Shown here one piece after another: positions 5,787 to 45,385 of a DNA stretch of 64,000 nucleotides (position 1 is the stretch's first letter; every line of letters begins with the position of its first letter). Below the pieces are notes generated by a model. It searched no databases, was not told the DNA's origin, and saw nothing but the letters and a program-made list of their open reading frames with translations. A program made the position numbers and the translations under genes. The stretch comes from Arachis hypogaea. Its lineage: Eukaryota > Streptophyta > Magnoliopsida > Fabales > Fabaceae. Location: assembly GCF_003086295.3 (NCBI RefSeq), contig NC_092051.1, forward strand, positions 80,236,445 through 80,300,444, read 5' to 3'.

Positions 5787-5806
5787 CTTGCTTAGGGACA
5801 AGCAAG
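5787..5806 (+). ncRNA. Pre-PPT hairpin H2 (element A)
   Basis: Arms CTTGCTT and AAGCAAG around loop AGGGAC, immediately upstream of the PPT-like word and the 3' LTR. The same fold with compensating stem changes is found in the other families of this window. Confidence 0.75.
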
Positions 5807-5810
5807 CTTT

Positions 5811-5823
5811 AAGTTTGGTGTTG
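5811..5823 (+). promoter_or_regulatory. PPT position of element A
   Basis: AAGTTTGGTGTTG abuts the first TG of the 3' LTR, which is where the plus-strand primer of reverse transcription lies. It is only moderately purine-rich for a polypurine tract. Confidence 0.6.
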
Positions 5824-6150
5824 TGATGCCAGGGCATTTTGGCCAGTTTCACTGACCTTTTCTTTACTGTTTTAGGGTAGTTTCATGCATTTTCTTAGGA
5901 AATAAGCTAGGTTTGGATAGATATTCACTTACACCTGGATTCAAGCATACATTGTGCATTTTACATGATTTCATGAGGATTTTGCATGAATTTAGTGACA
6001 AATTGTATGCTGCATTACCCATGACTTGGACTAGAACTTTGATGCACTCTATTGCTTGATTTCAGGACCAAAGGAAGCAAGGAATGGGAGGTAACTTGCA
6101 AAGTTAATGAGAAAAGTGACTGCAAATAACGCTCTCGAAGCCATCATTAC

Positions 6151-7080
6151 CCACGTTAAGAGTCACGTTAACTAAGTTAACGTGAACTCTAATGTGAAGA
6201 AGGGAATTTGAGCCAACGTTAGTGACACTTAACATTATCATTAACGTTGGCCAATGCTCATAAGTGGCCACGTTAGAGTCCACGTTAACTTAGTTAACGT
6301 GGCCTCTAACGTTAAATGGGGAAAGGAGGCAAACATTAGTGACATTCAACATTGTCACTAACGTTGGCCTAAGTGCACAATGCCACGTTAACTCTCACGT
6401 TAACTTGATTAACGTGGGAGCTAACGTGAAGAGGCAAGGGTGGTCGACAACGTTAGTGACACCCAACATTGTCACTAACGTTGGAAGCAACCACACAACC
6501 CCAAGGAGCCACGTTAACTTAGTTAACGTGGAGGCTAACGTGAAAGAAGAAGGTGATGGCCAACGTTAGTGACACTCAACATTGTCACTAACGTTGGAAG
6601 GAGCCACACAAGCCACTATGAACCACGTTATCTCCCACGTTAACTTAGTTAACGTGGAAGCTAACGTGGATGAGTAAATAATGAACTAACATTAGTGACA
6701 CTCAACATTGTCACTAACGTTGGGGATGGCTAAGCATGGCCACGTTAAAGAGCCATGTTAACTAAGTTAACGTGGGCTCTAACGTGAGACATGGGGGCAC
6801 ATTGGAACGTTAGTAACAATGTTGAGTGTCACTAACGTTCTCGAAGGATGGCAAGCTCACGTTAAATAGCCACGTTAACTAAATTAACGTGGGCTCTAAC
6901 GTAGGAAAAAGGGGGGCTTTTCAATGTTATTGGGAAAGTTGAGTCCCAATAACGTGTGCGAAGGACCTAGAGGCAACGTTAGTGGCAACGTTTGTGCCAC
7001 TAACGTTGAGGTTAACGTGGCTTTCACTTAGGAACGTTAGTGAGAAAGTTGATTGTCACTAACGTTCTCGAATTCATATT
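6151..7080 (+). repeat. Array of two alternating long palindromes in the LTR
   Basis: Two words alternate with a pitch of roughly 115-125 bp. Word P has arms CCACGTTAACT and AGTTAACGTGG around one base. Word Q has arms AACGTTAGTGACA and TGTCACTAACGTT around an 8-base loop. Every copy can form a hairpin and carries ACGT cores. The loop of Q reads CTCAACAT in the left part and its reverse complement from about 6800 on, so the array contains an inversion. Confidence 0.9.
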
Positions 7081-7244
7081 TTCACTAAACGTTAACACCC
7101 CTAACGTCCTTAGCTAAAGTCTCTGCCCACTTTACACTTTCTCTCTGCAAGTAAAGCCAAGCCCAAATGAAGAAGAGAACTGCTTCAAACTCAAGATCCA
7201 AAGGCCCAAGACTTGAAGAGCCAACTAGAGGATGAGAAGAGTAG

Positions 7245-11447: not shown

Positions 11448-11509
11448 GGAGCCATGGCGAGCCAGATAGCGGAGGTAATGCTTCCAGCCCTACCTTGTTC
11501 CTTACTTAT

Positions 11510-11547
11510 GGCACGGAGGACCGTGCCAAGCCTTAAGTGTGGGGAGG
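11510..11547 (+). ncRNA. H2 hairpin plus PPT-like word after ORF2 (element G)
   Basis: GGCACGG-AGGA-CCGTGCC (11510-11527), then seven bases, then AAGTGTGGGGAGG (11535-11547). The word is identical to the true PPT of element E at 41976, yet here it sits about 1.35 kb before the expected LTR, directly after ORF2. Confidence 0.75.
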
Positions 11548-12893: not shown

Positions 12894-14439
12894 TGATGAG
12901 CGGATAATTTATACGCTTTTTGGCATTGTTTTTAAGTAGTTTTCAGCATGTTTTAATTACTTTTGAGTATATTTTTATTTGTTTTTATTCAAAATTCACA
13001 TTTCTGGACTTTACTATGAGTTTGTGTGTTTTTCTGTGATTTTAGATATTTTCTGGCTGAAATTGAGGGACCTGAGCAAAATCTAATTCAGAGGCTGAAA
13101 AAGGACTGCAGATGCTGTTGGATTCTGACCTCCCTGCACTCGAAATAGATTTTCTGGAGCTACCGAAACCCAAATGGCGCGCTCTCAATTGCGTTGGAAA
13201 GTAGACATCCAGAGCTTTCCAGAAATATATAATAGTTCACACTTTGCTCAAACATAAATGACGTAAACTGGCGTTTAACGCCAGTTCCATGTTCCATTCT
13301 GGCGTTAAACGCCAGAAACAGGTTACAAGTTGGAGTTAAACGCCCAAACCAAGTTACAACCTGGCGTTTAACTCCAGAAACAGCCTAGGCATGTGTAAAG
13401 CTCAAGTCTCAGCCCTAGCACACACCAAGTGGGTCTCAGAAGTGGATTTCTACACTATCTATCGTAGTTTACTCATTTTCTGTAAACCTAGGTCACTAGT
13501 TAGTATTTAAACAACTTTTAGAGATTTATTTTGCATCTCATGACATTTTCACGTTTTACATTGTATCTCTACAACATGAGTCTCTAAACTCCATGATTGG
13601 GGGTGAGGAGCTCTGCTGTGTCTCGATGAATTAATGCAATTACTTCTGTTTTCTATTCAAACACGCTTGTTTCTATTCTAAGATATTCACTCATACTTAA
13701 CCATGATGAATGTGATGATCCGTGACATTCATCACCATTCTCAACCTTTGAACGCGTGCCTAACAACCACTTCCGTTCTACCTTAGATTGAGTGTATATC
13801 TCTTAGCCTCTCGGTTCATGATCAGAGTCTTCGTGGTATAGGCTAGGACTATTGACTGCCATTCCCGAGATCTGGAAAGTCTAAACCTTGTCTTTGGTAT
13901 TCTGAGTAAGATCTGGGATGGAATGACTGTGACGAGCTTCAAACTCACGAGTGCTGGGCATAGTGACAGATGCAAAAGGATCAATGGATCCTATTCCAAC
14001 ATGAGTGAGAACCGACAGATGATTAGCCGTGCAGTGACAGCGCATTTGGACCATTTTCACTGAGAGGACGGATGGTAGCCATTGACAACGGTGATCCACC
14101 AACATACAACTTGCCATGGAAGGAGCCCTGCATGTGTGAAGAAGAAGACAGTAGGAAAGCAGGGATTCGGAAGACAGAGCATCTCCAAAACCTCAATCTG
14201 TTCTCCATTACTGCATAACAAGTAACTTTTATTTCATGTTATTAAATTTTCATAAATAAAAGTAATTTTTATTATTAATCTCCTGACGAAGATTTACAAG
14301 ATAACCATAGATTGCTTCAAGCCAACAATCTCCGTGGGATTGACCCTTACTCACGTAAGGTATTACTTGGACGACCCAGTGCACTTGCTGGTTAGTTGTG
14401 TGGAGTTGTGAAAAGTGTGAATCACAATTTTGTGCACCA
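12894..14439 (+). repeat. 5' LTR of element F (1546 bp)
   Basis: Starts TGATGAGCGG and ends GTGCACCA. Contains the palindrome array at 13267-13385, a TATTTAAA word at 13504-13511 and the U5 block GGGATTGACC followed by hairpin CCTTAC-TCAC-GTAAGG (14345-14360). Confidence 0.92.
13267..13385 (+). repeat. TGGCGTTTAACGCCA palindrome array in F LTR
   Basis: About four inverted-repeat words of the GGCGTTTAACGCC type, evenly spaced at about 30 bp. The same word family recurs in F's own internal region at 18460-18765. Confidence 0.85.
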
Positions 14440-14445
14440 AGTTTT

Positions 14446-14462
14446 TGGCACTGTTGCTGGGG
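14446..14462 (+). promoter_or_regulatory. Primer-binding site of F (tRNA-Asp type, three mismatches)
   Basis: TGGCACTGTTGCTGGGG. It differs at three positions from TGGCGCCGTTGCCGGGG, the complement of the plant tRNA-Asp 3' end. All three are G/A or C/T changes. Confidence 0.85.
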
Positions 14463-15540
14463 ATTGTTCGAGTTTGGACAACTGACGATTTATTCTGTTG
14501 CTTAGATTAGGAAAAACTTTTCTTTTTGGTTTAGAGTCTTCTATTATTGTTTTTGGTTAAAATTTTAAAATCCTTATTTTATTTTTCTAAATTATTTTCG
14601 AAAATTTTTAAAATCCAATAACTTCATGAGTTTAGTTTCATATTTTAAGTTTGGTGTCAATTGCATGTTTTTATTTTCCTTTAAATTTTCGAATTTTTGT
14701 TCATTGTTCTTTCTTGATCTTCAAGTTGTTCTTGCTATTTTTCTTGTTTGATCTTTAGTTTTTCCTGTTGTGTGTCTTTTCTTGTTTTTCTTGTGCATTT
14801 TCAAATTATCAGTATTCAAAAAATTTTATACATTAAATACCTTTTTTTTAAAACACGTTAAATTTATAGCTCAGTTGGCTAGAGCGTTGTGCTTATGTTC
14901 TTGGTAATTGGGTATCTTCCTTTTAAAATTTTTTCAAAAATAATTTTTCTTTGATTAAATCTTGTATCAAACTTTTAAGTTTGGTGTTCTTTTTATGTTC
15001 TTGAGTCTTTGAATTTTATTCTTGTTGTTCTTGTGAGTCTTCAAGGTGTTCTTGAGTCTCCTTTGTATTTTGATCTTAAAATCTTTAAGTTTGGTGTTCC
15101 TTGGTGTTTTCCCTCCAAAATTTTCGAAAAACAAGGAGAATTAGATCTAAAAATTTTGAGTCTGCTGTCATTTTATTGTTTTTCTCTTTCCTCATTAAAT
15201 TCAAAAATAGTTTTTCTCTTTATTTTAAAATTGAATTTTCGAAAATTACTTTTAAAACTTCAGATTTTTATTTTAAAAATCAAATCTTTTCAAAACTCAA
15301 AATCTTTTTTCAAAAATTATATCCAAAGTTTTTCAAATCTTCTTAATTAAGCAATTATTTTCATTTTCAAATTTATTCTTTCTCTTGGTTTTCGAATTTT
15401 ACATTTTAATTCCTAAATATTTTATTTTATTTTATCTTATTATTTTAATTATCTTAATAATTTGGTTTGTCATATTTAAATAAAATAAAAACAAAAATAT
15501 ATTTTCTCTGCAATTCATATCAATTCCAATTTTATCCATC
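14463..15540 (+). other. Leader of element F
   Basis: T-rich noncoding leader between PBS and gag, with three AAGTTTGGTGT words (14647, 14977, 15087), three TTTTCGAAAA palindromes and a tRNA-like fragment at 14867. Low-complexity TTCAAAATC runs fill 15180-15350. Confidence 0.7.
14867..14894 (+). other. tRNA-derived 5' half fragment in F leader
   Basis: TAGCTCAGTTGG at 14867-14878 is a perfect tRNA D-arm/box A. The homology to plant tRNA-Ile (AAU) runs on through AGAGCG and TGTGCT. No T-arm, box B or acceptor partner follows, so it is not an intact tRNA gene. Confidence 0.55.
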
Positions 15541-16025
15541 ATGGATCTAAGTGGAAATGAACAGTCCAGAAGGACTCTGGAGTCATATGCTAATCTCACT
15601 ACTACTGCATATGGGAGTAGTATATGTATACCTCCCATCAAAGCAGGCAATTTTGAGCTAAATCCTCAGCTCATTGTCATGGTGCAGCAAAACTGCTAGT
15701 ATTCTGGTCTTCCACAGGAAGAACCTAATGAGTTTCTGGCGCAGTTCTTGCAAATTGCTGACACAGTGTGTGACAAGGGGTAGATCAGGATGTATACAGG
15801 CTATTACTGTTTCCGTTTCCTGTAAAAGATCAAGCTAAGAGGTGGTTAAATAACCAACCCACAGCAATCATAAGAACATAGAAACAGTTATCAGACAAAT
15901 TCCTGAATCAATATTTCCCTCCAAAAAGGATGACACAGCTAAGGCTGGACATCCAAGGCTTTAAACAAGAGGATAATGAATCCCTTTATAATGCCTGAGA
16001 GAGGTACAGAGGAATGCTAAGGAAA
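15541..16025 (+). pseudogene. gag remnant of element F
   Basis: ATG 15541 begins an Athila-like gag related to that of B (an NFELxPQL motif followed by QQNC, then LLLFPF). It carries stops at 15697 and 15781 and at least one frameshift near 15780, then continues to WLNNQPT and a PPKRMTQLRLDIQ-like segment. At about 16020 it is joined directly to reverse transcriptase sequence; the rest of gag, the protease and the N-terminal part of RT are gone. Dead copy. Confidence 0.75.
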
Positions 16026-18235
16026 CAGCATTCACATGTCCTTTTGGAGTGTTTGCCTACAGAAGGATGCCTTTCGGTCTGTGCAATGCACCTGCAACCT
16101 TTCAGAGGTGCATACTCTCTATCTTCTCTGATAAAATTTCTAGAAGTCTTCATGGATGACTTTTCAGTATTTGGAGACTCATTCAGCTCCTGCCTTGACC
16201 ATTTAGCACTTGTTCTGAAAAGATGCCAAGAGACCAACCTGGTTTTAAACAGGGAAAAATGTCACTTTATGGTGACTGAAGGAATTGTCCTTGGGCATAA
16301 AATTTCAAATAAGGGAATAGAAGTGGATCAAGTTAAAGTGGAAGTGATTGAAAAACTACCACCACCTGCCAATGTTAAGGCAATTAGAAGCTTTCTGGGG
16401 CATGCAGAATTCTATAGGAGGTTTATAAAGGATTTTTCAAAAATTGCAAAACTTCTGAGCAATCTGCTAGTTGCTGACACGCCCTTTGTGTTTGACACAG
16501 AGTGTCTGCAGGCGTTTGAAACCCTGAAAGCTAAGCTGGTCACAGCACCAGTTATTTCTGCACTAGACTGGACATTACCGTTCGAACTAATGTGTGATGC
16601 CAGTGACCATGCCATTGGTGCAGTACTGGGACAGAGGCATAACAAGCTTCTGCATGTCATTTATTATGCTAGCCGCATTTTAAATGATGCCCAGAAAAAT
16701 TACACAACCACAGAAAAAGAATTACTTGCAGTGGTTTATGCCATTGACAAGTTTAGATCATACTTAGTAAGATCCAAAGTGATTGTGTACACTGACCATG
16801 CTGCTCTTAAATATCTACTCACAAAGAAGGATTCAAAACACAGGCTCATAAGATGGGTGTTGCTTCTGCAAGAGTTTGATATAGAAATAAGAGACAGAAA
16901 AGGGACAGAGAACCAAGTGGCTGATCATCTGTCCCGGATAGAACCAATAGAAGGGGCATTTCCCCCCTCTATTGAGATCTCTGAAACCTTTTCGGATGAC
17001 CAATTATTTACCATTCAGGAAACACCATGGTTTGCAGACATTGCAAACTATAAAGCTACAAGATTCATATCCAAGGAGTACAGCAGGCAACAAAAGAAAA
17101 AATTAATTATTGATGCAAAGTACTACTTGTGGGATGAACCCTATCTCTTTAAGAGATGTGCAGACGGAATAATCCGTAGGTGTGTACCTGGAGGAGAAGC
17201 ACAGAAGATCTTATGGCATTGCCATGGAGGCCATTTCGGAGGTGAGCAAACAGCCACCAAGGTCCTCCAATGTGGCTTCTACTGGCCTACCCTCTATAGA
17301 GATTCCCGAGAGTTTGTACGTAACTGGGACAGTTGCCAGAGAGCTGGTAATCTGCCTCATGGTTACGCCATGCCTCAACAAGGAATCTTGGAGATTGAGT
17401 TGTTTGATGTATGGGGTATTGACTTCATGGGGCCTTTCCCACCATCATATTCAAACACTTATATTCTGGTGGCAGTAAACTATGTATCCAAATGGGTAGA
17501 GGTCGTTTCCATACCCACTAATGATACTAAGACAGTACTGATGTTTCTCCAGAAACATATCTTCAGCAGGTTTGGTGTCCCTAGAGCACTTATCAATGAT
17601 GGGGCACTCACTTCTGCAACAAATAGCTTTACTCTGCTATGGTCCGGTATAGAATTAGCCACAAGGTGGAAACTCCATATCATCCACAGACAAATGGGCA
17701 AGCTGAAGTCTCTAATAGAGAACTAAAAAGAATCTTAAAATGGACTGTAAGTACCCGTAGAAAGGATTGGGCGAGAAGCTTGGATGATGCTCTGTGGGCT
17801 TACAGAACAGCATTCAAGACTCATATAGGGACCTCTTCATATAAGCTTGTGTATGGTAAGGCCTGTCATCTGCCCGTGGAACTAGAGCATAAGGCCTACT
17901 GGGCAACCAAATTCCTAAACTTTGATGCCAAATTAGCTAGAGAAAAAAGATTGCCCCAGTTGAATGAGCTAGAGGAATTCAGACTTACTGCTTTCAAAAA
18001 TGCCAAGCTGTCATCTAGAGTCTTTGAACTAGGACAAATGGTTCTACTGTTTAACTCTAGGCTCAGGCTATTCCCCGGGAAACTGAAATCCCGGTGGAGG
18101 GGACCATATATGATTACAAGTGTGTTACCATATGGCTGTGTGGAGCTTTAAGACATTGATTCTAATAAGAAGTTCATTGTTAATGGACAGAGAATCAAGC
18201 ATTATCTTGAAGGCAATATTGAGCAAGAGTGCTAA
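16026..18235 (+). pseudogene. pol remnant of element F: RT (C-terminal part), RNase H, integrase
   Basis: Begins mid-RT at a FTCPFG and [15 protein letters not shown] stretch (16030-16110). After a one-base shift it reads [12 protein letters not shown] (RT metal-binding motif), then RNase H ([51 protein letters not shown]). Next is the integrase zinc region (CHGGHFG, later WDSCQRAG, so the first Cys of the CxxC pair is Trp), the catalytic [13 protein letters not shown] and [11 protein letters not shown], and the Athila-type C-terminus ending NGQRIKHY. Breaks: shift near 16125, shift near 17635-17640, stop at 18149-18151 replacing Glu. The enzymes would copy and integrate the RNA; this copy cannot encode all of them. 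Confidence 0.88.
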
Positions 18236-18294
18236 AGGCTGAGGCTAGATTAAAAGCTCAGCAAGGTCCAGCTAAAGACAATAAAGAAGCACTT

Positions 18295-18312
18295 GCTGGG
18301 AGGCAACCCAGC
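18295..18312 (+). ncRNA. Post-stop hairpin H1 (element F)
   Basis: GCTGGG-AGGCAA-CCCAGC, 60 nt after the pol stop and preceded by AAAGAAGCACTT. Same loop as in A, B and D, different stem. Confidence 0.75.
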
Positions 18313-33068: not shown

Positions 33069-33855
33069 ATGAGCAGGAGCAAGGATAAGAACATTCTTGT
33101 GGAAGCAGATCCAGAACCTGAAAGGACTCTGAAGAAAAAATTAAGAGAAGCTAAAATACAACAATCCAGAGATAACCTTTCAGAAATTTTCGAACAGGCA
33201 GAGGAGATGGCAGCCGAAAATAATAATAATGTAAGGAAGATGCTTGGTGACTTTACTGCATCTAATTCCAATTTACATGGAAGAAGCATCTCCATTCCTG
33301 CCATTGGAGCAAACAACTTTGAGCTGAAACCTCAATTAGTTTCTCTGATGCAGCAGAACTGCAAGTTTCATGGACTTTCATCTGAAGATCCTTTTCAGTT
33401 CTTAACTGAATTCTTGCAGATATGTGATACTGTAAAGACTAATGGAGTAGATCCTAGTCTACAGGCTCATGCTTTTCCCTTTTGCGGTAAGAGACAGAGC
33501 TAGATTATGGTTGGATTCTCAACCCAAAGACAGCCTGAACTCTTGGGATAAGCTGGTCACGGCTTTCTTTGCCAAGTACTTTCCTCCTCAAAAGCTGAGC
33601 AAGCTTAGAGCTGATGTTCAAACCATCAGGCAGAAAGAAGGTGAATCCCTCTATGAAGCTTGGGAAAGATACAAACAGTTGACCAAAAAGTGTCCTTCTG
33701 ACATGCTTTCAGAATGGACCATCCTGGATATATTCTATGATGGTCTGTCTGAGTTATCTAAGATGTCACTGGACACTTCTGCAGGTGGATCCATTCACCT
33801 AAAGAAAACGCCTGCAGAAGCTCAAGAACTCATTGACATGGTTGCTAATAACTAG
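33069..33855 (+). pseudogene. Gag N-terminal part of element B (frameshift and stop)
   Basis: ATG 33069 (MSRSKDKN) starts a gag related to those of A, D and F, with an NNFELKPQLVSLMQQNC motif. A one-base shift near 33460-33485 breaks the frame. The second frame carries ARLWLDSQP, LVTAFFAKYFPPQ and ESLYEAWERYKQL, then ends at TAG 33853-33855, where the same frame simply resumes at 33859. The stop fits a CAG-to-TAG change. Despite the young LTRs the gene is already broken. Confidence 0.85.
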
Positions 33856-33858
33856 TTC

Positions 33859-35394
33859 ATGTACACTTCTGAAAGGAATCCTGTGAATAATGGGACGCCT
33901 ATGAAGAAGGGAGTTCTTGAAGTTGATACTCTGAATGCCATATTGGCTCAGAATAAAATATTGACTCAGCAAGTCAATATGATTTCTCAGAGTCTGCATG
34001 GAATGCAAGCTGCATCCAATAGTACTCAAGAGGCATCTTCTGAAGAAGAAGCCTATGATCCTGAGAACCCTGCAATAGCAGAGGTGAATTACTTAGGTGA
34101 ACCTTATGGAAACACCTATAACTCAACATGGAGAAATCATCCAAATTTCTCATGGAAGGATCAAAAGCCTCAACAAGGCTTTAATAATGGTGGAAGAAAC
34201 AGGTTTAGCAATAGCAAGCCTTTTCCATCATCAACTCAGCAACAGACAGAGAACTCTGAACAAAATACTTCTAATTTAGCAAATCTAGTCTCTGATCTAT
34301 CTAAGGCCACTGTAAGTTTCATGAATGAAACAAGGTCTTCCATTAGAAATCTGGAAGCACAAGTGGGCCAGCTGAGTAAAAGGATCACTGAAATCCCTCC
34401 TAGTACTCTCCCAAGCAATACAGAAGAGAACCCAAAAGGAGAGTGCAAGGCCATTGACATAAGCGCCATGGCCGAACCTGTGAGGAGAGGAAAGGACGTG
34501 AATCCCAAGGAGGAAGACCTCTTGGGATGTCCAGTGATCAATAAGGAGCTTCCCTCTGGGGAACCAAAGGACTCTGAGGCTCATCTAGAGACCATAGAGC
34601 TTCCATTGAACCTCCTTATGCCCTTCATGAGCTCTGATGAATATTTCTCTTCAGAAGAGAACGAGGATGTTACTGAAGAGCAACTTGCCAAATTTCTTGG
34701 TGTAATCATGAAGCTGAATGCCAAATTATTTGGCATTGATACTTGGGAAGTTGAACCTCCCTTGTTCATCAATGAACTAAGTGATCTGGATCAACTGACA
34801 TTACCTCAGAAGAGACAGGATCCTGGAAAGTTCATAATACCTTGTACCATAGGCACCATGATCTTTAAGGCTCTGTGTGACCTTGGTTCAGGAATAAACC
34901 TCATGCCCCTCTCTGTAATAGAGAAACTGGGAATCTATGGGGTGCAAGCTGCTAAAATCTCACTAGAGATGGCAGACAGCTCAAGAAAACAGGCTTATGG
35001 ACAAGTAGAAGATGTATTAGTAAAGGTTGAGGGCCTTTACATACCTACTGATTTCATAGTCCTGGATACTGGAAAGGAAGAGGATGAATCCATCATCCTA
35101 GGAAGACCTTTCCTGGCCACAGCAAGAACTGTGATTGATGTTGACAGAGGTGAAATAGTCCTTCAATGGAATGAGAACTCCCTTGTATTCAAAACTCAAG
35201 GATCTCCCTCTGCAACCATGGAGAGGAAGCTTGAAAAGCTTCTCTCAAAGCAGAGTCAACCAGAGCCCCCACAGTCAAACTCTAAGTTTGGTGTTGGGAG
35301 GCCACAACCAAACTCTAAGTTTGGTGTTGAACTCCCATATCCAAACTCTAAGTTTGGTGTTGGAGAGTCTCAACAAAGCTCTGCACATCTGTGA
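33859..35394 (+). CDS. Gag C-terminal part and aspartic protease of element B (511 codons)
   Basis: Open from the codons after the stop at 33853. A helical NNILxQNKILTQQV-type segment and a Q/N-rich linker lead to the retropepsin core CDLGSGINLMPLS (near 34875; family consensus is DLGAS), then FIVLDTGK and ILGRPFLATARTVID. It ends in three 11-residue repeats containing PNSKFGV (33-bp DNA units at 35284, 35317 and 35350). No integrase remnant is seen, unlike A and D. No pol follows. Confidence 0.85.
   Translation: MYTSERNPVNNGTPMKKGVLEVDTLNAILAQNKILTQQVNMISQSLHGMQAASNSTQEASSEEEAYDPENPAIAEVNYLGEPYGNTYNSTWRNHPNFSWKDQKPQQGFNNGGRNRFSNSKPFPSSTQQQTENSEQNTSNLANLVSDLSKATVSFMNETRSSIRNLEAQVGQLSKRITEIPPSTLPSNTEENPKGECKAIDISAMAEPVRRGKDVNPKEEDLLGCPVINKELPSGEPKDSEAHLETIELPLNLLMPFMSSDEYFSSEENEDVTEEQLAKFLGVIMKLNAKLFGIDTWEVEPPLFINELSDLDQLTLPQKRQDPGKFIIPCTIGTMIFKALCDLGSGINLMPLSVIEKLGIYGVQAAKISLEMADSSRKQAYGQVEDVLVKVEGLYIPTDFIVLDTGKEEDESIILGRPFLATARTVIDVDRGEIVLQWNENSLVFKTQGSPSATMERKLEKLLSKQSQPEPPQSNSKFGVGRPQPNSKFGVELPYPNSKFGVGESQQSSAHL
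35274..35372 (+). repeat. 33-bp tandem repeat x3 at gag-protease 3' end
   Basis: Period exactly 33 bp, each unit containing AACTCTAAGTTTGGTGTT, which encodes NSKFGV. The coding repeat thus contains the same word as the PPT position. Confidence 0.88.
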
Positions 35395-35432
35395 GGCTCC
35401 ATGAGAGCCCACTGTCAAGCTATTGACATTAA

Positions 35433-35450
35433 AGAAGCGCTTGTTGGGAG
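35433..35450 (+). ncRNA. Post-stop hairpin H1 (element B)
   Basis: TTGGG-AGGCAA-CCCAA plus a closing G-T pair, 38 nt after the gag-protease stop, preceded by AAAGAAGCGCTT. Confidence 0.75.
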
Positions 35451-35598
35451 GCAACCCAATGTTTATCTAATTCTTATTTTTATTATTTTTCATGTTTTTT
35501 TTAGGTTCATGATCATGTGGAGTCACAAAATAAATATAAAAATTGAAAACGGAATCAAAAATAGCAGAAGAAAAATCACACCCTGGAGGAGCATCTGT

Positions 35599-35770
35599 CT
35601 GGCGTTCAAACGCCAGAACAGAGCATAGTTCTGGCGCTGAACGCCCAGAATGGGAGCATCCTGGTGCTAAACGCCCAGAACAAGCATGGTTCTGGCGTTC
35701 AACGCCAGAAATGGCAGCAAAGGGCGTTGAACGCCCAAAATGGGCACCAACCTGGCGCTGAACGCCCAGA
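35599..35770 (+). repeat. Internal array of CTGGCGTTCAACGCCAG palindromes (element B)
   Basis: Six words starting at 35599, 35631, 35661, 35692, 35722 and 35752, spacing 30-32 bp. Same vocabulary as B's LTR array. Confidence 0.88.
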
Positions 35771-36127
35771 GTTGTGTGCAAGGGCATTTTACATGCCTAA
35801 ATTGGTGCAGGGATGTAAATGCCTTGACACCTCAGGATCTGTGGACCCCACAGGATCATCTCAGGATCTGTAGACCCCACAGGATCCCCACCTACCTCCA
35901 CTCACTTCTTCTCACCACTCTCTTTCACACAACCCCATAAACACTCTTCCCTAAAAACCCCTCACCAATCACCTCCATCCCTCTTTCCCACTAAACCTTC
36001 ACCACTCACATCCACCCACTCTTCCCAATAAACCTACCTCATAAACTCCACCTACCTTCAAAATTCAAAACCAATTTCCCACCCAAACCCACCCATATGG
36101 CCGAACCTTTACCCCCCCTCCCTTCCC

Positions 36128-36135
36128 TATATAAA
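36128..36135 (+). promoter_or_regulatory. Candidate internal TATA box upstream of ORF2 (element B)
   Basis: TATATAAA about 195 bp before the ORF2 ATG, followed by a CA/CT-rich leader. Same arrangement as in A and D. Confidence 0.5.
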
Positions 36136-36253
36136 GACCTCCATTCTTCATCAAATTCACACAACACACCCCTCTACACTCTCCTTGGCCGAAACCACAT
36201 CTCCCTCTCCCTCTCCATATTTCTTCTTCTTCTTCTTCTTCTATTCTTTTGTT

Positions 36254-36290
36254 TATTGCTCGAGGGCGAGCAATATTCTAAGTTTGGTGT
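36254..36290 (+). ncRNA. H2 hairpin plus AAGTTTGGTGT upstream of ORF2 (element B)
   Basis: Nine-bp arms TATTGCTCG and CGAGCAATA around AGGG, then AAGTTTGGTGT (36280-36290), 39 nt before the ATG. Relative to the 3' copy at 38573 one T-A pair has become C-G on both sides. Confidence 0.78.
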
Positions 36291-36328
36291 GGTAAAAGTA
36301 TAGTTTTTTTGTTTTTCCATTACCATTG

Positions 36329-37477
36329 ATGGCATCTAAGATCGGAGAATCCTCTAGAAGAGGGAAAGGGAAGTCAAAAGCTTCCACATCCGAGTCATGG
36401 GAGATGGAAAGGTTCATCTCCAAAGCCCATCAAGACCACTTCTATGATGTTGTGGCCAAGAAGAAGGTGATCCCTGAGGTCCCTTTTAAACTCAAAAGAA
36501 ATGAGTATCCGGAGATCCGACATGAAATTCAAAGAAGAGGTTGGGAAGTTCTAACAAATCCCATCCAACAAGTCGGCATCCTAATGGTTCAAGAATTCTA
36601 TGCCAATGCATGGATCACCAAGAACCATGATCAAAGTAAGAACCCGGATCCAAAGAACTATGTTACAATGGTTCGGGGGAAATACTTAGATTTTAGTCCG
36701 GAAAATGTGAGGTTGGCGTTCAACTTACCATACATGGAAGAGAACGCACGCCCCTACACAAGGAGAGTCAACTTTGATCAAAGGTTGGACCAAGTCCTTA
36801 TGGACATATGTGTAGAAGGAGCTCAATGGAAGATTGACTCCAAAGGCAAGCCGGTTCAACTAAGAAGATTGGACCTCAAGCCTATAGCTAGAGGATGGTT
36901 GGAGTTTATTCAATGCTCAATCATTCCCACTAGCAACCGGTCTGAAGTTACTATAGACCGGGCCATCATGATCCATAGCATCATGATTGGAGAAGAGGTG
37001 GAAGTTCATGAGATTATACCTCAAGAACTCTACAAGGTGGCTGACAAGTCCTCCACCATGGCAAGGTTAGCCTTTCCTCACCTCATTTGCCACCTATGCA
37101 ATTCAGCTGGAATTGACATAGAGGGAGATATCCTCATTAAAGAGGACAAGCCCATCACTAAGAAAAAGATGGAGCAAGCAAGAGAGCCCAATCATGGAGC
37201 TCAAGAGGCGCAAGAAGCTCATTTCCATGAGATCCCGGAGATGCCTCAAATGCACTTTCCTCCACAAAATTATTGGGAGCAAATCAACACCTCCCTAGGA
37301 GAATTGAGTTCCAATATGGGACAACTAAGGGTGGAACATCAAGAGCACTCCATCATGCTTCATGAAATAAGAGAAGATCAAAAAGCAATGAGGGAAGAGC
37401 AACAAAGACAAGGAAGAGACATAGAAGAGCTCAAGGACATCATTGGTTCCTCAAGAAGGAAACGCCACCATCACTAA
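36329..37477 (+). CDS. ORF2 of element B: intact extra gene of unknown function (382 aa)
   Basis: The only complete ORF2 in the window. The ATG at 36329 is the first in the transcript after the candidate TATA and H2 hairpin. Serine/lysine-rich N-terminus; conserved core HQDHFYDVVAKKKVIPEV, EYPEIRHEIQRRGWEVL, MVQEFYANAW, VRGKYLDFSPENVRLAFNLP; second block ARGWLEFIQCSIIPTSNRSEVTIDRA (two stretches), VHEIIPQELY, FPHLICHLCNSAGID. The C-terminus (about 300-382) is a Q/E-rich coiled coil ending in SSRRKRHHH. No signal peptide or membrane segment. Matches the 'putative plant transposon protein' group in name only. Its survival in an element whose gag is broken is notable. Confidence 0.82.
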   Translation: MASKIGESSRRGKGKSKASTSESWEMERFISKAHQDHFYDVVAKKKVIPEVPFKLKRNEYPEIRHEIQRRGWEVLTNPIQQVGILMVQEFYANAWITKNHDQSKNPDPKNYVTMVRGKYLDFSPENVRLAFNLPYMEENARPYTRRVNFDQRLDQVLMDICVEGAQWKIDSKGKPVQLRRLDLKPIARGWLEFIQCSIIPTSNRSEVTIDRAIMIHSIMIGEEVEVHEIIPQELYKVADKSSTMARLAFPHLICHLCNSAGIDIEGDILIKEDKPITKKKMEQAREPNHGAQEAQEAHFHEIPEMPQMHFPPQNYWEQINTSLGELSSNMGQLRVEHQEHSIMLHEIREDQKAMREEQQRQGRDIEELKDIIGSSRRKRHHH

Positions 37478-38572
37478 GGTGGATTCATTCCTTGTTCTTG
37501 CTTTCTCTGTTTTTCGTTTTCTATGTTATGTGCCTATCTATGTTTGTGTCTTCACTACATGATCATTAGTAGTTAGTAACTTTGTCTTAAAGATATGAAT
37601 GTCCTATGAATCCATCACCTCTCTTAAATGAAAAATGTTTTAATTCAAAAGAACAAGAAGTACATGAGTTTCGAATTTATCCTTGAACTTAGCTTAATTA
37701 TATTAATGTGGTGACAATGCTTCTTGTTTTCTGAATGTATGCTTGAACAGTGCATATGTCTTTTGAAGTTGTTGTTTAAGAATGTTAAATATGTTGGCTC
37801 TTGAAAGAATGATGACTAGGAGACATGTTATTTGATAATCTGAAAAATCATAAAAATGATTCTTGAAGCAAGAAAAAGCAGCAAAGAACAAAGCTTGCAG
37901 AAAAAAAGAAAAAAAAAAAAGGGGGCGAAAAAAAATAGAAAAAAAATATATAGAAAGAAAAAGAAAAAGCAAGCAGAAAAAGCCAATAACCCTTAAAACC
38001 AAAAGGCAAGGGCAAATAAAAAGGATCCCAAGGCTTTGAGCATCAGTGGATAGGAGGGCCTAAAGGAATAAAATCCTGGTCTAAGCGGCTAAACCAAGCT
38101 GTCCCTAACCATGTGCTTGTGGCGTGTAGGTGTCAAGTGAAAACTTGAGACTGAGCGGTTAAAGTCAAGGTCCAAAGCAAAAAAAGAGTGTGCTTAAGAA
38201 CCCTGGACACCTCTAATTGGGGACTTTAGCAAAGCTGAGTCACAATCTGAAAAGGTTCACCCAATTATGTGTCTGTGGCATTTATGTATCCGGTGGTAAC
38301 ACTGGAAAACAAAGTGCTTAGGGCCACGGCCAAGACTCATAAAGAAGCTGTGTTCAAGAATCATCATACTGAACTAGGAGAATCAATAACACTATCTGAA
38401 TTCTGAGTTCCTATAGATGTCAATCATTCTGAACCTCAATGGATAAAGTGAGATGCCAAAACAATTCAAGAGGCAAAAAGCTATAAGTCCTGCTCATATG
38501 ATTGAAGCTCTATTTCATTGATAGTTTGGAATTTATAGTATATTCTCTTCTTTTTATCCTACCTGATTTTTA
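37478..38572 (+). other. 3' noncoding region of element B
   Basis: About 1.1 kb with no gene. It has an A-rich run at 37900-37980 and paired CTTGTGGCGT / CTGTGGCATT blocks at 38115 and 38272. The same order is found in F at 44233-45347. Confidence 0.65.
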
Positions 38573-38610
38573 GTTGCTTGGGGACAAGCAACAATTTAAG
38601 TTTGGTGTTG
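38573..38610 (+). ncRNA. H2 hairpin and PPT position of element B
   Basis: GTTGCTTG-GGGA-CAAGCAAC (38573-38592), five bases, AAGTTTGGTGTTG (38598-38610), then the 3' LTR. Confidence 0.8.
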
Positions 38611-40361
38611 TGATGAGCGGATAATTTATACGCTTTTTGGCATTGTTTTTAGTATGTTTTTAGTAGGATCTAGTTACTTTTAGGGATGTTTTCATTAGTT
38701 TTTATGTTAAATTCACATTTCTGGACTTTACTATGAGTTTGTGTGTTTTTCTATGATTTCAGGTATTTTCTGGCTGAAATTGAGGGACTTGAGCAGAAAT
38801 CAGATTCAGAGGTTGAAGAAGGACTGCTGATGCTGTTGGATTCTGACCTCCCTGCACTCAAAGTGGATTTTCTGGAGCTACAGAACTCGAAATGGCGCGC
38901 TTCCAATTGCGTTGGAAAGTAGACATCCAGGGCTTTCCAGAAATATATAATAGTCCATACTTTGGCCAAGAATAGACGACGTAAACTGGCGTTCAACGCC
39001 AGCCTTCTGCCCAAATCTGGCGTCCAGCGCCAGAAAAGGATCCAAAACCAGAGTTGAACGCCCAAACTGGCACAGAAACTGGCGTTCAACTCCACAAATA
39101 TCCTCTGCACGTGCTACACTTAAGCTCAGCCCAAACACACACCAAGTGGGCCCAGGAAGTGGATTTATGCATCAATTACTCACTCATGTAAACCCTAGTG
39201 ACTAGTTTATTATAAATAGGACCTCTTACAATTGTATTAGATGTCTTTTTGACCATCTTTGGATTACCTTATGATCCTTTGATCACGTTTTAGGGGGCTG
39301 GCCATCTCGGCCATGCCTGGACCTTCACTTATGTATTTTTAACGGTAGAGTTTCTACACTCCATAGATTAAGGTGTGGAGCTCTGCTGTTCCTCAAAGAT
39401 TAATGCAAAGTACTACTGTTTTCTATTCAATTCTTCTTATTTCGCTTCTAAGATATCCATTCGCACCCAAGAACGTGATGAAGGTGATGATTATGTGTGA
39501 CGCTCATCATCCTTCTCCCTTATGAACGCGTGCCTGACAAACACTTCCGTTCTACATGAATTAAGCTAGAATGAATATCTCTTAGATCTCCTAACCAGAA
39601 TCTTCGTGGCGTAAGCTAGAATGATGGCGGCATTCAAGAGAATCCGGAAGGTCTAAACCTTGTCTGTGGTATTCCGAGTAGGATTCAATGATTGAATGAC
39701 TGTGACGAGCTCCTAACTCGCGATTGCAGGGCGTTAGTGACAGACGCAAAAGGATAGTAAATCCTATTCCAGCATGATCGAGAACCGACAGATGAATAGC
39801 CGTGCCGTGACAGGGTGCATGAGCATATTATTCACTGAGAGGATAAGATGAAGCCATTGACAAGGGTGATGCCTCCAGACGATTAGCCGTGCCGTGACAG
39901 GGCATTGGATCATTTTCCCGAGAGATGACCGAAAGTAGCCATTGATAGTGGTGATGTATCACATAAAGCCAGCCATGGAAAGGAGTAAGACTGATTGGAT
40001 GAAGATAGCAGGAAAGCAGAGGTTCAGAGGAACGAAAAGCATCTCCATTCGCTTATCTGAAATTCCTACCAATGAATTACATAAGTATCTCTATCCCTAT
40101 TTTATTATATAATATTCGAAAACACCATTATCACTTTATATCTGCCTGACTGAGATTTACAAGGTGACCATAGCTTGGTTCATACCAACAATCTCCGTGG
40201 GATTCGACCCTTACTCACGTAAGGTATTACTTGGACGACCCAGTGCACTTGCTGGTTAGTTGTATCGAAGTTGTGATAATCATGAATTAAGATCAGAGCA
40301 CCAAGCTTTGGAGCCATTACCAGGATTTGTTCGAGCCTGGAGATCACAATTTCGTGCACCA
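38611..40361 (+). repeat. 3' LTR of element B (1751 bp)
   Basis: Same length and ends as the 5' LTR, with about 23 substitutions between them by hand count and no length change. Confidence 0.94.
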
Positions 40362-40366
40362 CGCCG

Positions 40367-40400
40367 ATTCACATACCTCAAGGAGCTGATCATGGGATAA
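40367..40400 (+). pseudogene. ORF2 of element E, last codons after element B
   Basis: The sequence after the right target-site copy continues E's ORF2 with a YLKELI motif and TAA at 40398-40400. Element G has the equivalent segment uninterrupted. Confidence 0.8.
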
Positions 40401-41952
40401 TTCAAGGATTCAGATACCCCGGACTCCACTTCCTTTACCAGCACAGGGAGCCACGATGGCCCCGACGATAGAGATACTGCTACCAACCCACCTTTGTTCT
40501 TGACAGATGGCACCGAGGATGATGCAAAGCCTTAAGTGTGGGGAGGTCGGTCAGTACCTGACTTTCGGAGGTAATTTCTCTTCCCTAGCACCAATAAATT
40601 AGGATATTTAGTTAGATTTTTCTTTTGTAGAATAGGATAAATTGCATAGTAATAGATTAGTTGCATGCATGTTCTGCTTGATTGAAAAGACAATAAGTTT
40701 CTTCTAAGACCCTATCTTTGGAATAAAATTTCACTAATTTTAATTAAAACTTTTATGTTAAATTTGCTTGAAGTTGTATTTGGAACATGATTTTTGAGCT
40801 AAAGAACACACAACCTGTGAGATTTGAGCCTTTATGAATGGTTACATTATTTAACCATAATTATTTTATTCTTGTGTGTTTACTTCTCTATGATTGTAAT
40901 CTATATTTTGTTTCATCCTATATGTCCAATGTTTATTATATTTATATGTTTGCATATGATTGAGGTCATTATTTGTTTAGCTTACTTATCCAAATTAAGC
41001 CTACCCTTTCAATTACCTTTGTTAGCCACTTTGAGCCTTTAAATCCCATTTGTTCTATATTTTACCACATTACTAGCCTTAAGCGAAAAAACAATTATAT
41101 ATCCCAGATTGAATCTTTGGTTAGCTTAAGATAGAATTGTGTGTATTATTTAAGTATGGGAAATTGTGGAAGCAAAAGATAATAAGGGAATGTGTCATGA
41201 TAATATACTAGGAATTTGGATACCTACTCATGAGAAACTGTAAGAATTAAAAATCTATGTGCATTGATAAGCTATGTTTATGTTTATGTTTATGTTGAAA
41301 AAAAATTCAAAAAAATAAATAAGGGGACAAAATTACCCCAATGTTAAATTAAGAATTCAAATGTCAATGCATGTATGATAAAACTAAAATAAAAGGTTGA
41401 AACATGAGTATGGAATGTGAAAGGAAATTTCTGGGTAGCTAGGTATGAATTTTAAAAGTTATATAGAATATATATAGGTTATGTTAAAGCTTGGGTTAAT
41501 TAAAGATTCAATTTATAAGCTTACTTAGCCATATATATATCCTTACCCTCACCTTGGCCCCATTACAACCTTGAAAAGACATCATGATGTTTGCATTGGT
41601 GTATTAAATGTTGTTGATTGGTTAGGAGAAGAACAAAAACTAGAAAGCATGATTAGAGAAGGATAGAGTAATTACCCTATACAGTAAAGTGACTGGAGTG
41701 TACATACACGTCAGTGAAGGTTCAATGCTTGAAATATTATGTTCCCTGCTTTCATGAGCTATCTTCTTGCATTTTTATCTGCTCTTGCTTTATAAGAATT
41801 GGGTTAGTGGAATTTGATTTGTAATTGTTTTGAAGAGCTTATTTACTTTAGATCAAGTGGACAAGAATCATATAGTTGCATTCGCATATATAGGCTGCAT
41901 TGCATTGCATGGGTTTTACGTTCTTACTCATTCATTTTATCTCCTTCAACTA
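40401..41952 (+). other. 3' noncoding region of element E
   Basis: Colinear with 11448-12893 of G. It holds AAGTGTGGGGAGG at 40533-40545, preceded by a decayed hairpin (40509-40526) that is perfect in G. No gene was found. Confidence 0.65.
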
Positions 41953-41989
41953 AGCATGAGGACATGCTAATGTTTAAGTGTGGGGAGGT
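41953..41989 (+). promoter_or_regulatory. H2 hairpin and polypurine tract of element E
   Basis: AGCATG-AGGA-CATGCT (41953-41968), then AAGTGTGGGGAGG (41976-41988), one T, then the 3' LTR. Here the PPT is truly purine-rich. Confidence 0.82.
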
Positions 41990-43478
41990 TGATAAACCAC
42001 TATTTTATGGTTTATATTGTGTTTAATTATGTGGTTTTATGATGATCGTTACCCACTTATTCATTAAATAAGCATGCATTTATAATTCCTTCCTAAAGTT
42101 ATTGCATGATTGAAAACTTGCTTCCTAGAGACTTTTAATTATGTATTTTATTTCTCCTTTCTTCCATTCGATGCCGTGATCCGTGTGTTAAGTGTTTCAG
42201 GCTTTATAGGGCATGAATGAGTTAGAGATTGGAAAGGAAGCTTGCAAAAAATGGAAAGAACACAAGAAATTGAGGAGATGACTAGCAAGAAGCGACGCAG
42301 CCGCATAGATGACGCGACCGCGTGGAAGAGAGGAAATCGCAATGACGCGGCCGCATGGATGACGCGACCGCGCGAATTGGAAATTGCACAAGTGATGCGG
42401 AGGCGTGGACGACGCGCCCGCATGCAAAGCGAAACGCCGAATGACGCGTCCGCATGAATGACGCGTCCGCGTGACATGCGCGATTTGCATAATCTGCAGA
42501 ATCGCTGGGGGCGATTTTGGGCCTTATTTTGACCCAGTTTTTGGCCCAGAAAAGCAGACTAGAGCCAGAGAACATGCAAAAACCAACAACAATATTCATT
42601 CCGCATAGTTTTAGTTTTTAGATCTAGTTTTCCTCTCCTCTAGGTTTTCTCTCTACACATTCATAGTTTTTAGGATTTGTTATTTTCATTGTTTTTGCAT
42701 TGGGATATTGAGAAGAGTTATTGCCTCATCAAGACTTCGACATTCTAGTTCGTTCTCTTTACTTGTCTCTTACTCTTCCATGTTCCTTAATTTACTTAAT
42801 TTCACTATTGGATTATTTTAGCATTTATTAATACAAGAATTACTTTTATTTTTAATTATTCTTTTGATCATTATTTATCATGTCTTTCTTTAATTCCCTT
42901 TCTTATGTTATGAATTTTACATTTACAATGAGCGAGTAGTTCCCTAACTTGATGGGGAGTTGATTGAGAGGAACCCTTGAGTTGGGATGCTCAAGAGAAA
43001 GATTGTAATTAGGTTTATTGTTGAATTGCTCTCTAGTCACTAACACCAATCCTCCTAAGAGCGGATTGGAACTTGTGGATAGAAACATCATTCCAACTTG
43101 TTTAACTTTCCCTTACTTAGTAAGGGACAACTAAACATAATAACCCTCAATTGTCAATTAATCATGAGAGTACTCTAACAAGAATAGGGCTTCCAACTAA
43201 TCAACTCCCAGTCAAGGCTTTTATTTAAATTTATATAAATTCTCTAATTTAATTTTATGCCATTCAACTCAAACCTCTTTGAAAACATCTGATTAATAAA
43301 ATAGCACACTTTTCTGCAACTCGTTGGAACATGACCTGGGATTCATACTCCCAGTATTTTAATTTTAATTTCTGTGACACCCTTCTAAATTGATAAGTGA
43401 ATTTCTGGTTGGTTGAGAACTATACTTGCAACGCATATTTTATAATCATTCTTAACTCACCAATTTCCGCCACCATCA
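41990..43478 (+). repeat. 3' LTR of element E (1489 bp)
   Basis: Same length and ends as 19697-21185, with compensating one-base indels. Followed by TSD GAGAT at 43479-43483. Confidence 0.93.
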
Positions 43479-44232
43479 GAGATCTTTAAGCTGCCTCAAC
43501 TGCAAGATGACCCAGACTCCTTTAATAGGAGAATGATGAGACCAAATCAGAGCTTGGACAAAATTCTAGAGGACATATGCCTCCCTGGAGCCAAATGGAC
43601 AACCAACACAGGGTGTCCCAAACTAACTCAAGAGAGGAGATCTCAAACCAGTCGCCAGAGCTTGGCTGGACTTCGTTGGGCACTCTATACTGCCCACTAG
43701 CAACCGCTCTGAAGTCACCATAAGAAGAGCAGTGATGATTCATTGCATTATGCTGGAAAAAGAAGTGGAAGTTCATCAGTTGATTTCTTGTGAGCTTTAC
43801 AAAATTGCAAACAAGAACTCCAAAGATGCCAAATTGGCCTATCCAAGCTTAATCTCTCTGTTATGTAAAGATGCTGGGGTAAAAATGGGAGTAGATGAGT
43901 ATATCTCAGTTGAGCAACCAATCACCAAAAAGTCAATGGAAGGACAAGTGCAGGACGACCCCATCAAGAGGAGAGCACAGGAGTTCCTCCCGGAAATTCC
44001 TCAATTTGAATACTGGGGGTGCCTAGAAACATCTATCACTAAGTTACAAGAAGCTATGGATCAACTGAAGGAAGAACAGCAAAATCAAAACAGCATGCTC
44101 TGCAAACTGCTTAGGGAACAAGAAGAGCAAGGGCATAAACTAAAGGAACTAAAGCGCCAGAAGCTATCTCTTGAAGGACCAAGCACTCCACAGGCTAAAG
44201 AGGCATCTACCTTCCAAAATAAAGGTTGTTGA
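43479..44232 (+). pseudogene. ORF2 of element F, C-terminal half (after element E)
   Basis: Resumes F's ORF2 directly after E. An early part (LPQLQDDPDSFNRRM, LDKILEDICLPGAKW) is followed by a one-base insertion near 43631-43637. The frame is then open to TGA 44230-44232, with VHQLISCELYKIANKN, YPSLISLLCKDAGV and a Q/E-rich coiled-coil tail (EEQQNQNSMLCKLLREQEEQ). Same organisation as ORF2 of B. Dead copy. Confidence 0.78.
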
Positions 44233-45347
44233 GTCCTAACTCTGTAATAACCTTTTATCTATTTTAAAAGTACATGAGTATTAGAATTAGAGTCATTTGT
44301 CTTTATGTCTTTAATTTCCTTTCTTTTATTATTAATTGTTTGCTTTTTAGGCCTATTTTAGATTATTTCTATTAAATAATAAATAAAGATTATAGTCTAT
44401 GCCTTAAAGTTATGAATGTCCTATGAATCCATTACCTTTCGTAAATGAAAAATGTTTTAATTACAAAAGAATAAGAAGTACATGATTTCGAATTCATCCT
44501 TGAAATTAGTTTAATTATTTTGATATGGTGACAATACTTTTTATTTTCTGAATGAATGTTTGAACAGTGCATATGTCTTTTGAATTTGCTGTTTATGAAT
44601 GTTAAAATTATTGGCTCTTGAAAGAATGATGAAAAAGGAGAAATGTTATTTGATAATCTGAAAAATCATAAAAATGATTCTTGAAGCAAGAAAAAGCAGT
44701 GAAGAACAAAGCTTGCAAAAAAAAAAAAAAGAGAGAGAAGAGCAAAAGCAAGCAGAAAATTCCAATAGCCCTTAAAATCAAAAGGCAAGGGTAATAAAAA
44801 GGATCCAAGGCTTTGAGCATTAATGGATAGGAGGGCCCGAAGGAATAAAATCCTGGCCTAAGCGGCTAAACCAAGCTGTCCCTAACCATGTGCTTGTGGC
44901 GTGAAGGTGTCAAGTAAAAAGCTTGAGACTGAGCAGTTAAAGTCGAGGTCCAAAGCAAAAAGATTGTGCTTAAGAACTCTGAACACCTCTAATTGGGGAC
45001 TTTAGCAAAGCTGAGTCACAATCTGAAAATGTTCACCCAGTTATGTGTCTGTGGCATTTATGTATCCGGTGGAAATATTGGAAAACAAAGTGCTTAGGGC
45101 CACGGCCAAGACTCATAAAGTAGCTGTGTTCAAGAATCAACATACTGAACTAGGAGATTCAATAATACTATCTAAATTCTGAGTTCCTATAGATGCCAGT
45201 CATTCTGAGCTTCAAAAGATAAAGTGAGATGCCAAAACTGTTCAGAGGCAAAAAGCTACTAGTCCCGCCCATTTAATTAGAACTAAGTTTCATTGATATT
45301 TTGGACTTTATAGTATATTTTCTTATTTTTATTCTATTTGATTTTCA
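44233..45347 (+). other. 3' noncoding region of element F
   Basis: Colinear with 37478-38572 of B, including an A-rich run near 44718 and the CTTGTGGCGT / CTGTGGCATT blocks at 44892 and 45049. No gene was found. Confidence 0.65.
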
Positions 45348-45385
45348 GTTGCTTGGGGACAAGCAACAATTTAAGTTTGGTGTTG
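45348..45385 (+). ncRNA. H2 hairpin and PPT position of element F
   Basis: GTTGCTTG-GGGA-CAAGCAAC (45348-45367), then AAGTTTGGTGTTG (45373-45385), then the 3' LTR. Confidence 0.78.

Follow-up and report, generated by a model that had tools for sequence, protein, structure and literature searches.

The choice of plus-strand primer by reverse transcriptase (RT) is usually ascribed to the purine tract itself. Several described retroelements carry more than one such polypurine tract (PPT), or a structured repeat beside it. In Athila4 and Calypso the linker holds a single additional PPT (Wright and Voytas 2002, cited by PMC2829016). Lentiviruses, foamy viruses and Ty1 have a central PPT, an internal second start for the plus strand, which in foamy virus lies at the end of pol (PMC6669543, PMC2829016), and Sireviruses combine multiple PPTs with an inverted repeat at the border of the PPT and the 3′ long terminal repeat (LTR) (PMC2829016). 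Here we analyze 64,000 nucleotides (nt) of Arachis hypogaea DNA (NC_092051.1, positions 80,236,445 to 80,300,444; the window), which are shown by self-comparison, target duplications and Pfam domains to hold nested Ty3/gypsy elements, C inside B inside D. The PPTs of these elements are preceded by a hairpin that covaries, keeps its loop, ends 17 to 19 nt before the LTR, and recurs in a second, internal copy of the same module. The order of the module is pyrimidine-rich leader, hairpin, spacer of 4 to 6 nt, PPT and LTR.

Hairpin and primer tract in the window

An initial annotation, made from the letters of the window, described a stem with a purine-rich loop followed 4 to 7 nt on by AAGTTTGGTGT or AAGTGTGGGGAGG, and direct reading finds this arrangement at all nine of its coordinates. 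As PPTs, six of the nine abut an LTR start (5787, 38573, 41953, 45348, 47637 and 56304) and three are internal (11510, 19243 and 36254). As separate cases they reduce to six distinct hairpins, since 5787, 47637 and 56304 belong to one family and the hairpins at 38573 and 45348 are identical. Its statement on every Athila-like family, that the hairpin comes before the PPT, is correct for the four families whose PPT adjoins an LTR (A, B, C and D), with the qualification that the same module also stands at internal PPT copies, one of them decayed. "Athila-like" is a label taken over from that annotation. The terminal modules, with stem lengths in base pairs (bp), are as follows.

5787..5821, + strand: family A, copy 1; hairpin 5787-5806, spacer, PPT core 5811-5821, then LTR-like TGTGATGCC
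47637..47671, + strand: family A, copy 2; hairpin 47637-47656, PPT core 47661-47671, then LTR-like sequence
56304..56338, + strand: family A, copy 3; hairpin 56304-56323, PPT core 56328-56338, then LTR-like sequence
38573..38610, + strand: family C; 8-bp hairpin 38573-38592, PPT AAGTTTGGTGTTG 38598-38610, LTR from 38611 (18 nt past the stem)
41951..41989, + strand: family B; 6-bp core 41953-41968 (8-bp frame 41951-41970), PPT from 41976, LTR from 41990 (19 nt beyond the 8-bp stem frame)
45348..45385, + strand: family D; hairpin 45348-45367 (20 nt identical to that of C), PPT 45373-45385, LTR from 45386 (18 nt past the stem)

The internal modules are:

11509..11547, + strand: family E (B-like); 8-bp hairpin 11509-11528, PPT-like AAGTGTGGGGAGG from 11535
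19243..19278, + strand: family D; 8-bp hairpin 19243-19262, PPT-like tract 19268-19278, no LTR after it
36254..36290, + strand: family C; 9-bp hairpin 36254-36275, PPT-like tract 36280-36290
40508..40546, + strand: family B, degenerate; 6 of 8 pairs (one G.U), PPT-like tract from 40534

The last of these is a tenth homologous site, absent from the earlier list, with its hairpin at 40508-40527 before AAGTGTGGGGAGG at 40534, about 1.4 kb upstream of the B terminal module. Like the E hairpin, whose frame is decayed, it makes up the final codons of a reading frame that ends with a TAA in the spacer. Both the C and the D internal modules stand 38 nt ahead of an ATG: in C that of an open reading frame (ORF) with a Transposase_32 domain (36329), and in D that of the post-pol frame (19317), which has one stop before B interrupts it and which we take to be the same post-pol ORF as in C. 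Same-strand doublets are also formed by B-type PPT words in the genome, where 34 neighbors within 4 kb were found among 100 places listed, 31 of the 34 at 1,403-1,788 bp. An extra internal PPT is in itself already known, and the internal modules match the report on Athila4 and Calypso.

On the + strand there are 16 perfect hairpins with a stem of at least 6 bp and a 3- to 7-nt loop containing GGA or GGG, and nine of these coincide exactly with the listed sites. When the loop is restricted to 4 nt of the form RGGR, six hairpins are left and all six are at listed sites, against one on the - strand and a mean of 0.29 (maximum 2) in 100 block shuffles; the three family A sites fall outside these six, having a 6-nt loop (or an A.C pair beneath a 4-nt loop). 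The exact word AAGTKTGGKG occurs 24 times on the + strand, nine times with a perfect stem of at least 6 bp 2-9 nt upstream and 15 times without, where the background is 2.7% of positions. The 11-mer AAGTTTGGTGT has 20 copies on both strands, compared with 0.09 expected, and 12 further + strand copies lack a perfect stem of at least 6 bp:

2543, 2643, 14647, 14977, 15087, 31740, 31929, 35284, 35317, 35350, 53075 and 53157, + strand: hairpin-free copies of AAGTTTGGTGT

In C and D such stem-free copies follow the primer-binding site (PBS); C also has some in an ORF repeat, and those of A stand between its protease and Transposase_32 ORFs. The copy at 31929 reaches 7 of 8 pairs once G.U is allowed and mismatches are counted. 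At 35284-35350, the 11-mer lies within a 33-bp tandem repeat and is read as KFGV.

The tract upstream of the hairpin is 0.63-0.93 pyrimidine. RNA folds suggested that it might pair with the PPT; we rejected this candidate, as at the nine sites the duplex energies were no better than those of shuffled upstream arms (fractions 0.19-0.94).

Pairing, loop and spacing beyond the window

The genome (2,557,474,382 bases) was searched for two PPT words, TTAAGTGTGGGGAGG, which occurs 36,047 times (5 when the pattern is read backwards), and TAAGTTTGGTGTTGTG, which occurs 64,407 times (4 backwards). Sites were drawn by PPT word alone, taking the first 30 loci per word and 20 of 70 further listed places per word, the latter chosen by position with their letters unseen. 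Neither word holds hairpin letters, and the second spans the first letters of the LTR and so favors terminal sites. Dropping repeat views left 100 distinct sites, all from one contig (C1) and within its first 18 Mb, which makes this a convenience sample of one chromosome.

At least 7 of 8 pairs (G.U counted) were present at 94 of the 100 sites, comprising 71 of 73 that are LTR-adjacent and 23 of 27 others. Applied to both strands of the first 60 loci outside these sites (176,600 positions), the same rule was satisfied at 3.1%, falling to 0.044% with an RGGR loop added, and a Watson-Crick-only control at seven offsets, with the sites themselves left in, gave 0.97% of 59,130 positions. Pairing was the only criterion for the 94 paired sites, and their loop is AGGA (66), GGGA (26) or AAGA (2), so that 92 fit RGGR. 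Anchoring on the loop alone, with RGGR at a fixed offset and pairing unused, placed 80 of 87 site views, and 78 of these 80 have 7 or 8 pairs; five of the 87 are, by our reading, repeat views, and 19 ambiguous cases were decided by the next letter. Under the 8-bp convention, the distance from stem end to LTR start at the 71 paired terminal sites is 17 nt in two cases, 18 nt in 55 and 19 nt in 14. Of the six unpaired sites, two have decayed (L278 and L283) and two, L302 and L307, have no LTR start after them and resemble the repeat at 35284-35350 within an ORF of C. In L312 most of the stem is retained and the loop is 3 nt long, and L313 has lost the 5′ arm.

A check of placement in many genera had been proposed, and one further element is covered here, with a related hairpin. 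Comparing the D pol protein with bacterial genome contigs gave L241 (NZ_QPKJ02000021.1) and L242 (NZ_JABGCL010000066.1), at 59% protein identity; the two are 99.6% identical, lie in assemblies of two different bacteria, and are plant retroelement contamination. Each has one + strand RGGR hairpin, ACATTG-AGGA-CAATGT, 7 nt ahead of AAGTTGGGGGG, and in L241 the hairpin is lacking at a further PPT-like word (6241), located past the pol stop. RT/RNase H precedes integrase in L241 pol, as it does in D. Among the matches listed for this protein, the closest is at 79% identity, Citrus and Rhododendron proteins match over the full length at 72-73%, and the closest Arachis match is at 71% over 44%. A model built from the six window hairpins ranked the L241 site next after the nine window sites, although weakly (13.7 bits, E 1.4), and left the decayed B copy unmatched at E up to 10. 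No hairpin site in the window matched Rfam at gathering score. Protein queries matched nothing among the IMG/VR viral contigs, where patterns gave apparent chance hits among the matches listed; a phage collection gave no match, and plasmids gave only matches of about 30% identity.

Covariation was assessed by pair counting with shuffle and slide controls, and the compensating changes on both arms that had been reported initially proved to be real. In eight distinct hairpins (six from the window, the decayed B copy and L241), 90.6% of 64 cells are paired and the covariation score is 0.893, compared with 0.246 when shuffled. A larger set of 35 distinct hairpins, limited to RGGR-loop sites, took 30 from the genome sample and the rest from the window and L241, with a misaligned L312 row excluded before counting. 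Here 90.4% of 280 cells are paired, both sides are altered in 101 cells, and the score reaches 0.872, where shuffling gives 0.270 and sliding no more than 0.188. At pair 3-18, 14 hairpins have GC, 11 have AU and 10 have UA, without a break, and the outer pairs 1 and 2 are broken most often. Because the alignment rows share descent, the events counted are not independent, and the stem classes (GCTTG, GCTCG, GCATG, GCACCG, GCACGG, GCATCG and ACATTG) are the fairer gauge of stem changes. Likewise, the invariant G10 and G11 of alignment A5 are partly built in, as the genome rows were anchored on RGGR.

Together this establishes that the hairpin is real and covarying, and it looks like a genuine RNA signal. 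G.T pairs outnumber A.C pairs, 15 to 5, an excess that leans weakly toward plus-sense RNA. Selection on structure, as had been claimed, is well supported by the covariation, the loop and the pairing at sampled sites; the accompanying suggestion that it might act in the RNA-DNA hybrid fails, because the hairpin cannot fold within such a hybrid. It must therefore act as single-stranded RNA, before or during copying. A sequence-specific DNA-binding palindrome was also considered and rejected, as the half-sites vary by family (GCTTG, GCATG, GCACC, GCACG, GCATC, ACATTG).

Candidate roles of the hairpin

We propose, with confidence that stops a little short of even, that the RGGR-loop hairpin (7-8 bp) is part of a plus-strand priming module and favors the RNase H cut at the PPT/U3 border. 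During minus-strand copying, RT would meet the foot of the folded hairpin right after the PPT, and either a stall there or a protein on the RGGR loop would promote the cut. In HIV-1 RT, 17-18 bp separate the polymerase and RNase H sites, which fits the hairpin spacing: with RT halted at the stem foot and RNase H 17-18 bp behind, the RNase H site would be at the PPT/U3 border. The hairpin would thereby label the adjoining PPT as primer over look-alike 11-mers elsewhere in the element, and the internal module could serve as a second plus-strand start in the manner of a central PPT. The primer shared by the A, C and D families, AAGTTTGGTGTTG, is six-thirteenths pyrimidine and not a pure polypurine tract. 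Given that element C, which uses it, is young (LTRs 98.7% identical, intact duplication), something beyond purine content may mark the primer, and a second mark on the true primer is attractive because the same 11-mer recurs 12 times without a perfect stem. In its fullest form, the proposal is of a primer-licensing hairpin that, from 17-19 nt away, stalls or docks RT for an exact PPT/U3 cut, lets the barely polypurine AAGTTTGGTGTTG be used while stem-free 11-mers are ignored, and marks the internal module as a central plus-strand origin, in some families within the last post-pol codons. We regard this complete version as possible, though on the unlikely side.

Several results weigh against a priming role, or against the strength of the structural case. 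In the 35 hairpins, double-change pairs number 7 compared with 7.4 shuffled, and further pair types 19 compared with 19.1. RNAfold places the hairpin in the minimum-energy fold of 89-nt pieces in only 5 of 9 cases, with z from +0.42 to -2.87; for this reason the thermodynamic case is weak alone, and the argument rests on covariation and placement. Comparison of C with D shows local conservation at the hairpin that is not distinctive, since other 41-nt windows are also 100% conserved. The B internal hairpin is broken even though B inserted fairly recently (LTRs 96.9%), and contact of the L241 hairpin site with an LTR could not be established. For a PPT word richer in purines, TTTAAGTTTGGGGGAG, the genome has one occurrence (68 when the pattern is read backwards), and the hairpin is absent there, with 5 of 8 pairs. 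Ty3 RT has a spacing of about 13 bp (PMC5371799), a poorer fit to the stem foot.

The strongest rival holds that the hairpin is a binding site for Gag nucleocapsid or for Pol, acting in packaging or enzyme activation and merely lying beside the PPT, with the two loop G's as the contact. The loop of HIV SL3 is an analogous protein-contact loop. Docking would account for a loop that is retained as stems vary, even where the loop was not a criterion, and CCHC knuckles are present both in B gag (at 22302) and in L241 (at 1173). Purine-rich elements in stem-loops near the foamy virus central PPT bind PR-RT (PMC6669543), which offers a precedent. Elements A and C retain the hairpin and have no RT in ORFs of at least 150 amino acids, which is neutral here, as the proteins could be supplied in trans. 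However, docking leaves the tight 17-19 nt distance to the LTR unexplained, and we consider it unlikely. If it were true, a signal for packaging or assembly would lie where none had been expected.

The remaining explanations are both improbable in our estimation. Template switching between the arms, during DNA or RT synthesis, could keep the palindrome by quasi-palindrome correction without selection. Such switching can make and keep RNA hairpins whose arms change in compensation (PMC8794818), quasi-palindrome mutations in yeast are favored by RNA-DNA hybrids (PMC3820800), and reverse transcription crosses the site in each cycle; yet it does not explain why perfect + strand RGGR hairpins sit at PPT modules only (6 of 6), nor does it account for the retained loop and distance. 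We give as little credence to a coding or regulatory origin, in which the internal copy either encodes the post-pol end (..T/I-E-D-x-A..) or adjusts how that ORF is spliced or translated, the terminal copy being its duplicate. The B/E-type internal hairpin does make up the last codons, with L267 having 287 open codons upstream and ending STEDRAKF*, the C and D internal modules lie just ahead of the post-pol ATG, and a foamy virus purine-rich element regulates env splicing (PMC6669543). Against this, terminal copies lie at least 1.06 kb beyond the last listed post-pol ORF. The codons of the coding copies also change in step with pairing (ACC..GGT, ATC..GAT, ACG..CGT), so that the letters seem to follow the pairing and not the protein, and the frames of L264, L275, L280 and L282 run past a hairpin that is nevertheless paired (L283, also read through, is unpaired).

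The host elements and described systems

The elements that carry these modules are:

29415..40361, + strand: element C, inserted within B; target duplication CGCCG; LTRs 29415-31165 and 38611-40361 at 98.7% identity
36326..37477, + strand: post-pol ORF of C; Pfam PF20167 Transposase_32, in an env-like position
19697..43478, + strand: element B including C; LTRs 19697-21185 and 41990-43478, 96.9% identical; target duplication GAGAT
21300-23063, 24533-25348 and ATG 28330: coding parts of B, respectively gag, RT/RNase H and the Transposase_32 ORF
12894..46485, + strand: element D including B; 5′ LTR from 12894, PBS-like site at 14446, 3′ LTR from 45386
16014-17726, + strand: ORF of D for RT-RNase H-integrase

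The D ORF has the order RVT_1, RT_RNaseH, Integrase_H2C2, rve, with RT/RNase H ahead of integrase as in Ty3/gypsy elements; its rve match is under the curated Pfam cut-off. Paired LTRs with a 5-bp target duplication are seen in two elements, C and B. An extra ORF between pol and the 3′ LTR is present in A, B and C, with PF20167 matches above cut-off, and the D piece 43732-44232 matches below it; an ORF in this position is characteristic of the Athila/Calypso lineage, its predicted domain here being Transposase_32. The post-pol frame of D was probably split by the insertion of B. PBS-like sites of the TGGCGCCGTTGC type, identified by their letters, lie 4-6 nt past LTR ends at 21190, 31172 and 49835; in the Calypso group, the PBS is offset by 5 bp and corresponds to tRNA-Asp (PMC1142308).

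Element A (50446-56338) has gag, protease and Transposase_32 ORFs, and the interior of C (31166-38610) has a weak protease match and Transposase_32. Pfam found no RT match among the ORFs of at least 150 amino acids of A, nor in the two such ORFs of C, and both elements are probably non-autonomous. Three A-family copies flank the D/B/C nest, and 11419-12890 is the B-like fragment E. Among the matches listed for proteins of the window, the closest come from Arachis. Family A (1-8188 and 46522-58360) looks like tandem internal-LTR units with common LTRs, broken by D/B/C. By eye, the D 3′ LTR passes into A-LTR-like sequence near 46486, whereas the BLAST match to the D 5′ LTR reaches 46521; 46486-46595 thus appears to be a chimeric junction, in which about 110 nt of A-family LTR start follow the D 3′ LTR and A internal sequence comes next. 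The B post-pol ORF begins directly after a splice-acceptor-like TTTCCTTTTTCAG|G (28290-28345, ATG 28330). The only Rfam hits in the window are three snoR71 matches on the - strand (169-272, 21852-21959 and 50701-50804), barely over gathering score; they are on the opposite strand to the elements, in or near gag regions, and the family may include retroelement-derived sequence.

Such a conserved, covarying hairpin, kept at a constant distance upstream, suggests a part for RNA structure in primer choice. The two PPT words total about 100,000 occurrences in one crop-size genome, with the hairpin at 94 of the 100 sites sampled. The hairpin also provides a handle for annotating LTR borders. We recognized no description of this hairpin among the papers listed in the literature searches, which leave out most subscription papers.

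Among the closest described systems, Athila4 and Calypso are env-like Ty3/gypsy elements whose second PPT lies between pol and the 3′ LTR like our internal modules; the hairpin found here is not mentioned in the passage of PMC2829016 that cites their linker PPT. Lentiviruses, foamy viruses and Ty1 share the idea of an internal start, which in our elements is a prediction from sequence, and no such upstream hairpin is described for them in the passages cited (PMC6669543, PMC2829016). Foamy virus PARM, the PR-activating RNA motif, also has stem-loops with purine-rich elements near a PPT; it needs both its A and B elements and lies in the 3′ end of pol (PMC6669543), and the likeness drawn here is one of description. 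Ty3, also Ty3/gypsy, has its plus-strand primer upstream of U3, with the PPT itself within a weakly supported paired region, and the relevant passages describe no upstream hairpin and identify no central PPT (PMC11381356, PMC5371799). Sireviruses also have a structured repeat at the terminal PPT and many extra PPTs; in these Ty1/copia elements, however, the PPT is in the loop, the right arm is within the LTR, and the upstream PPTs have no repeat (PMC2829016). The hairpin arms described here do not take that form (no search for a repeat reaching into the LTR was made): both arms lie upstream of the PPT, the internal copies carry the hairpin as well, and the elements are Ty3/gypsy.

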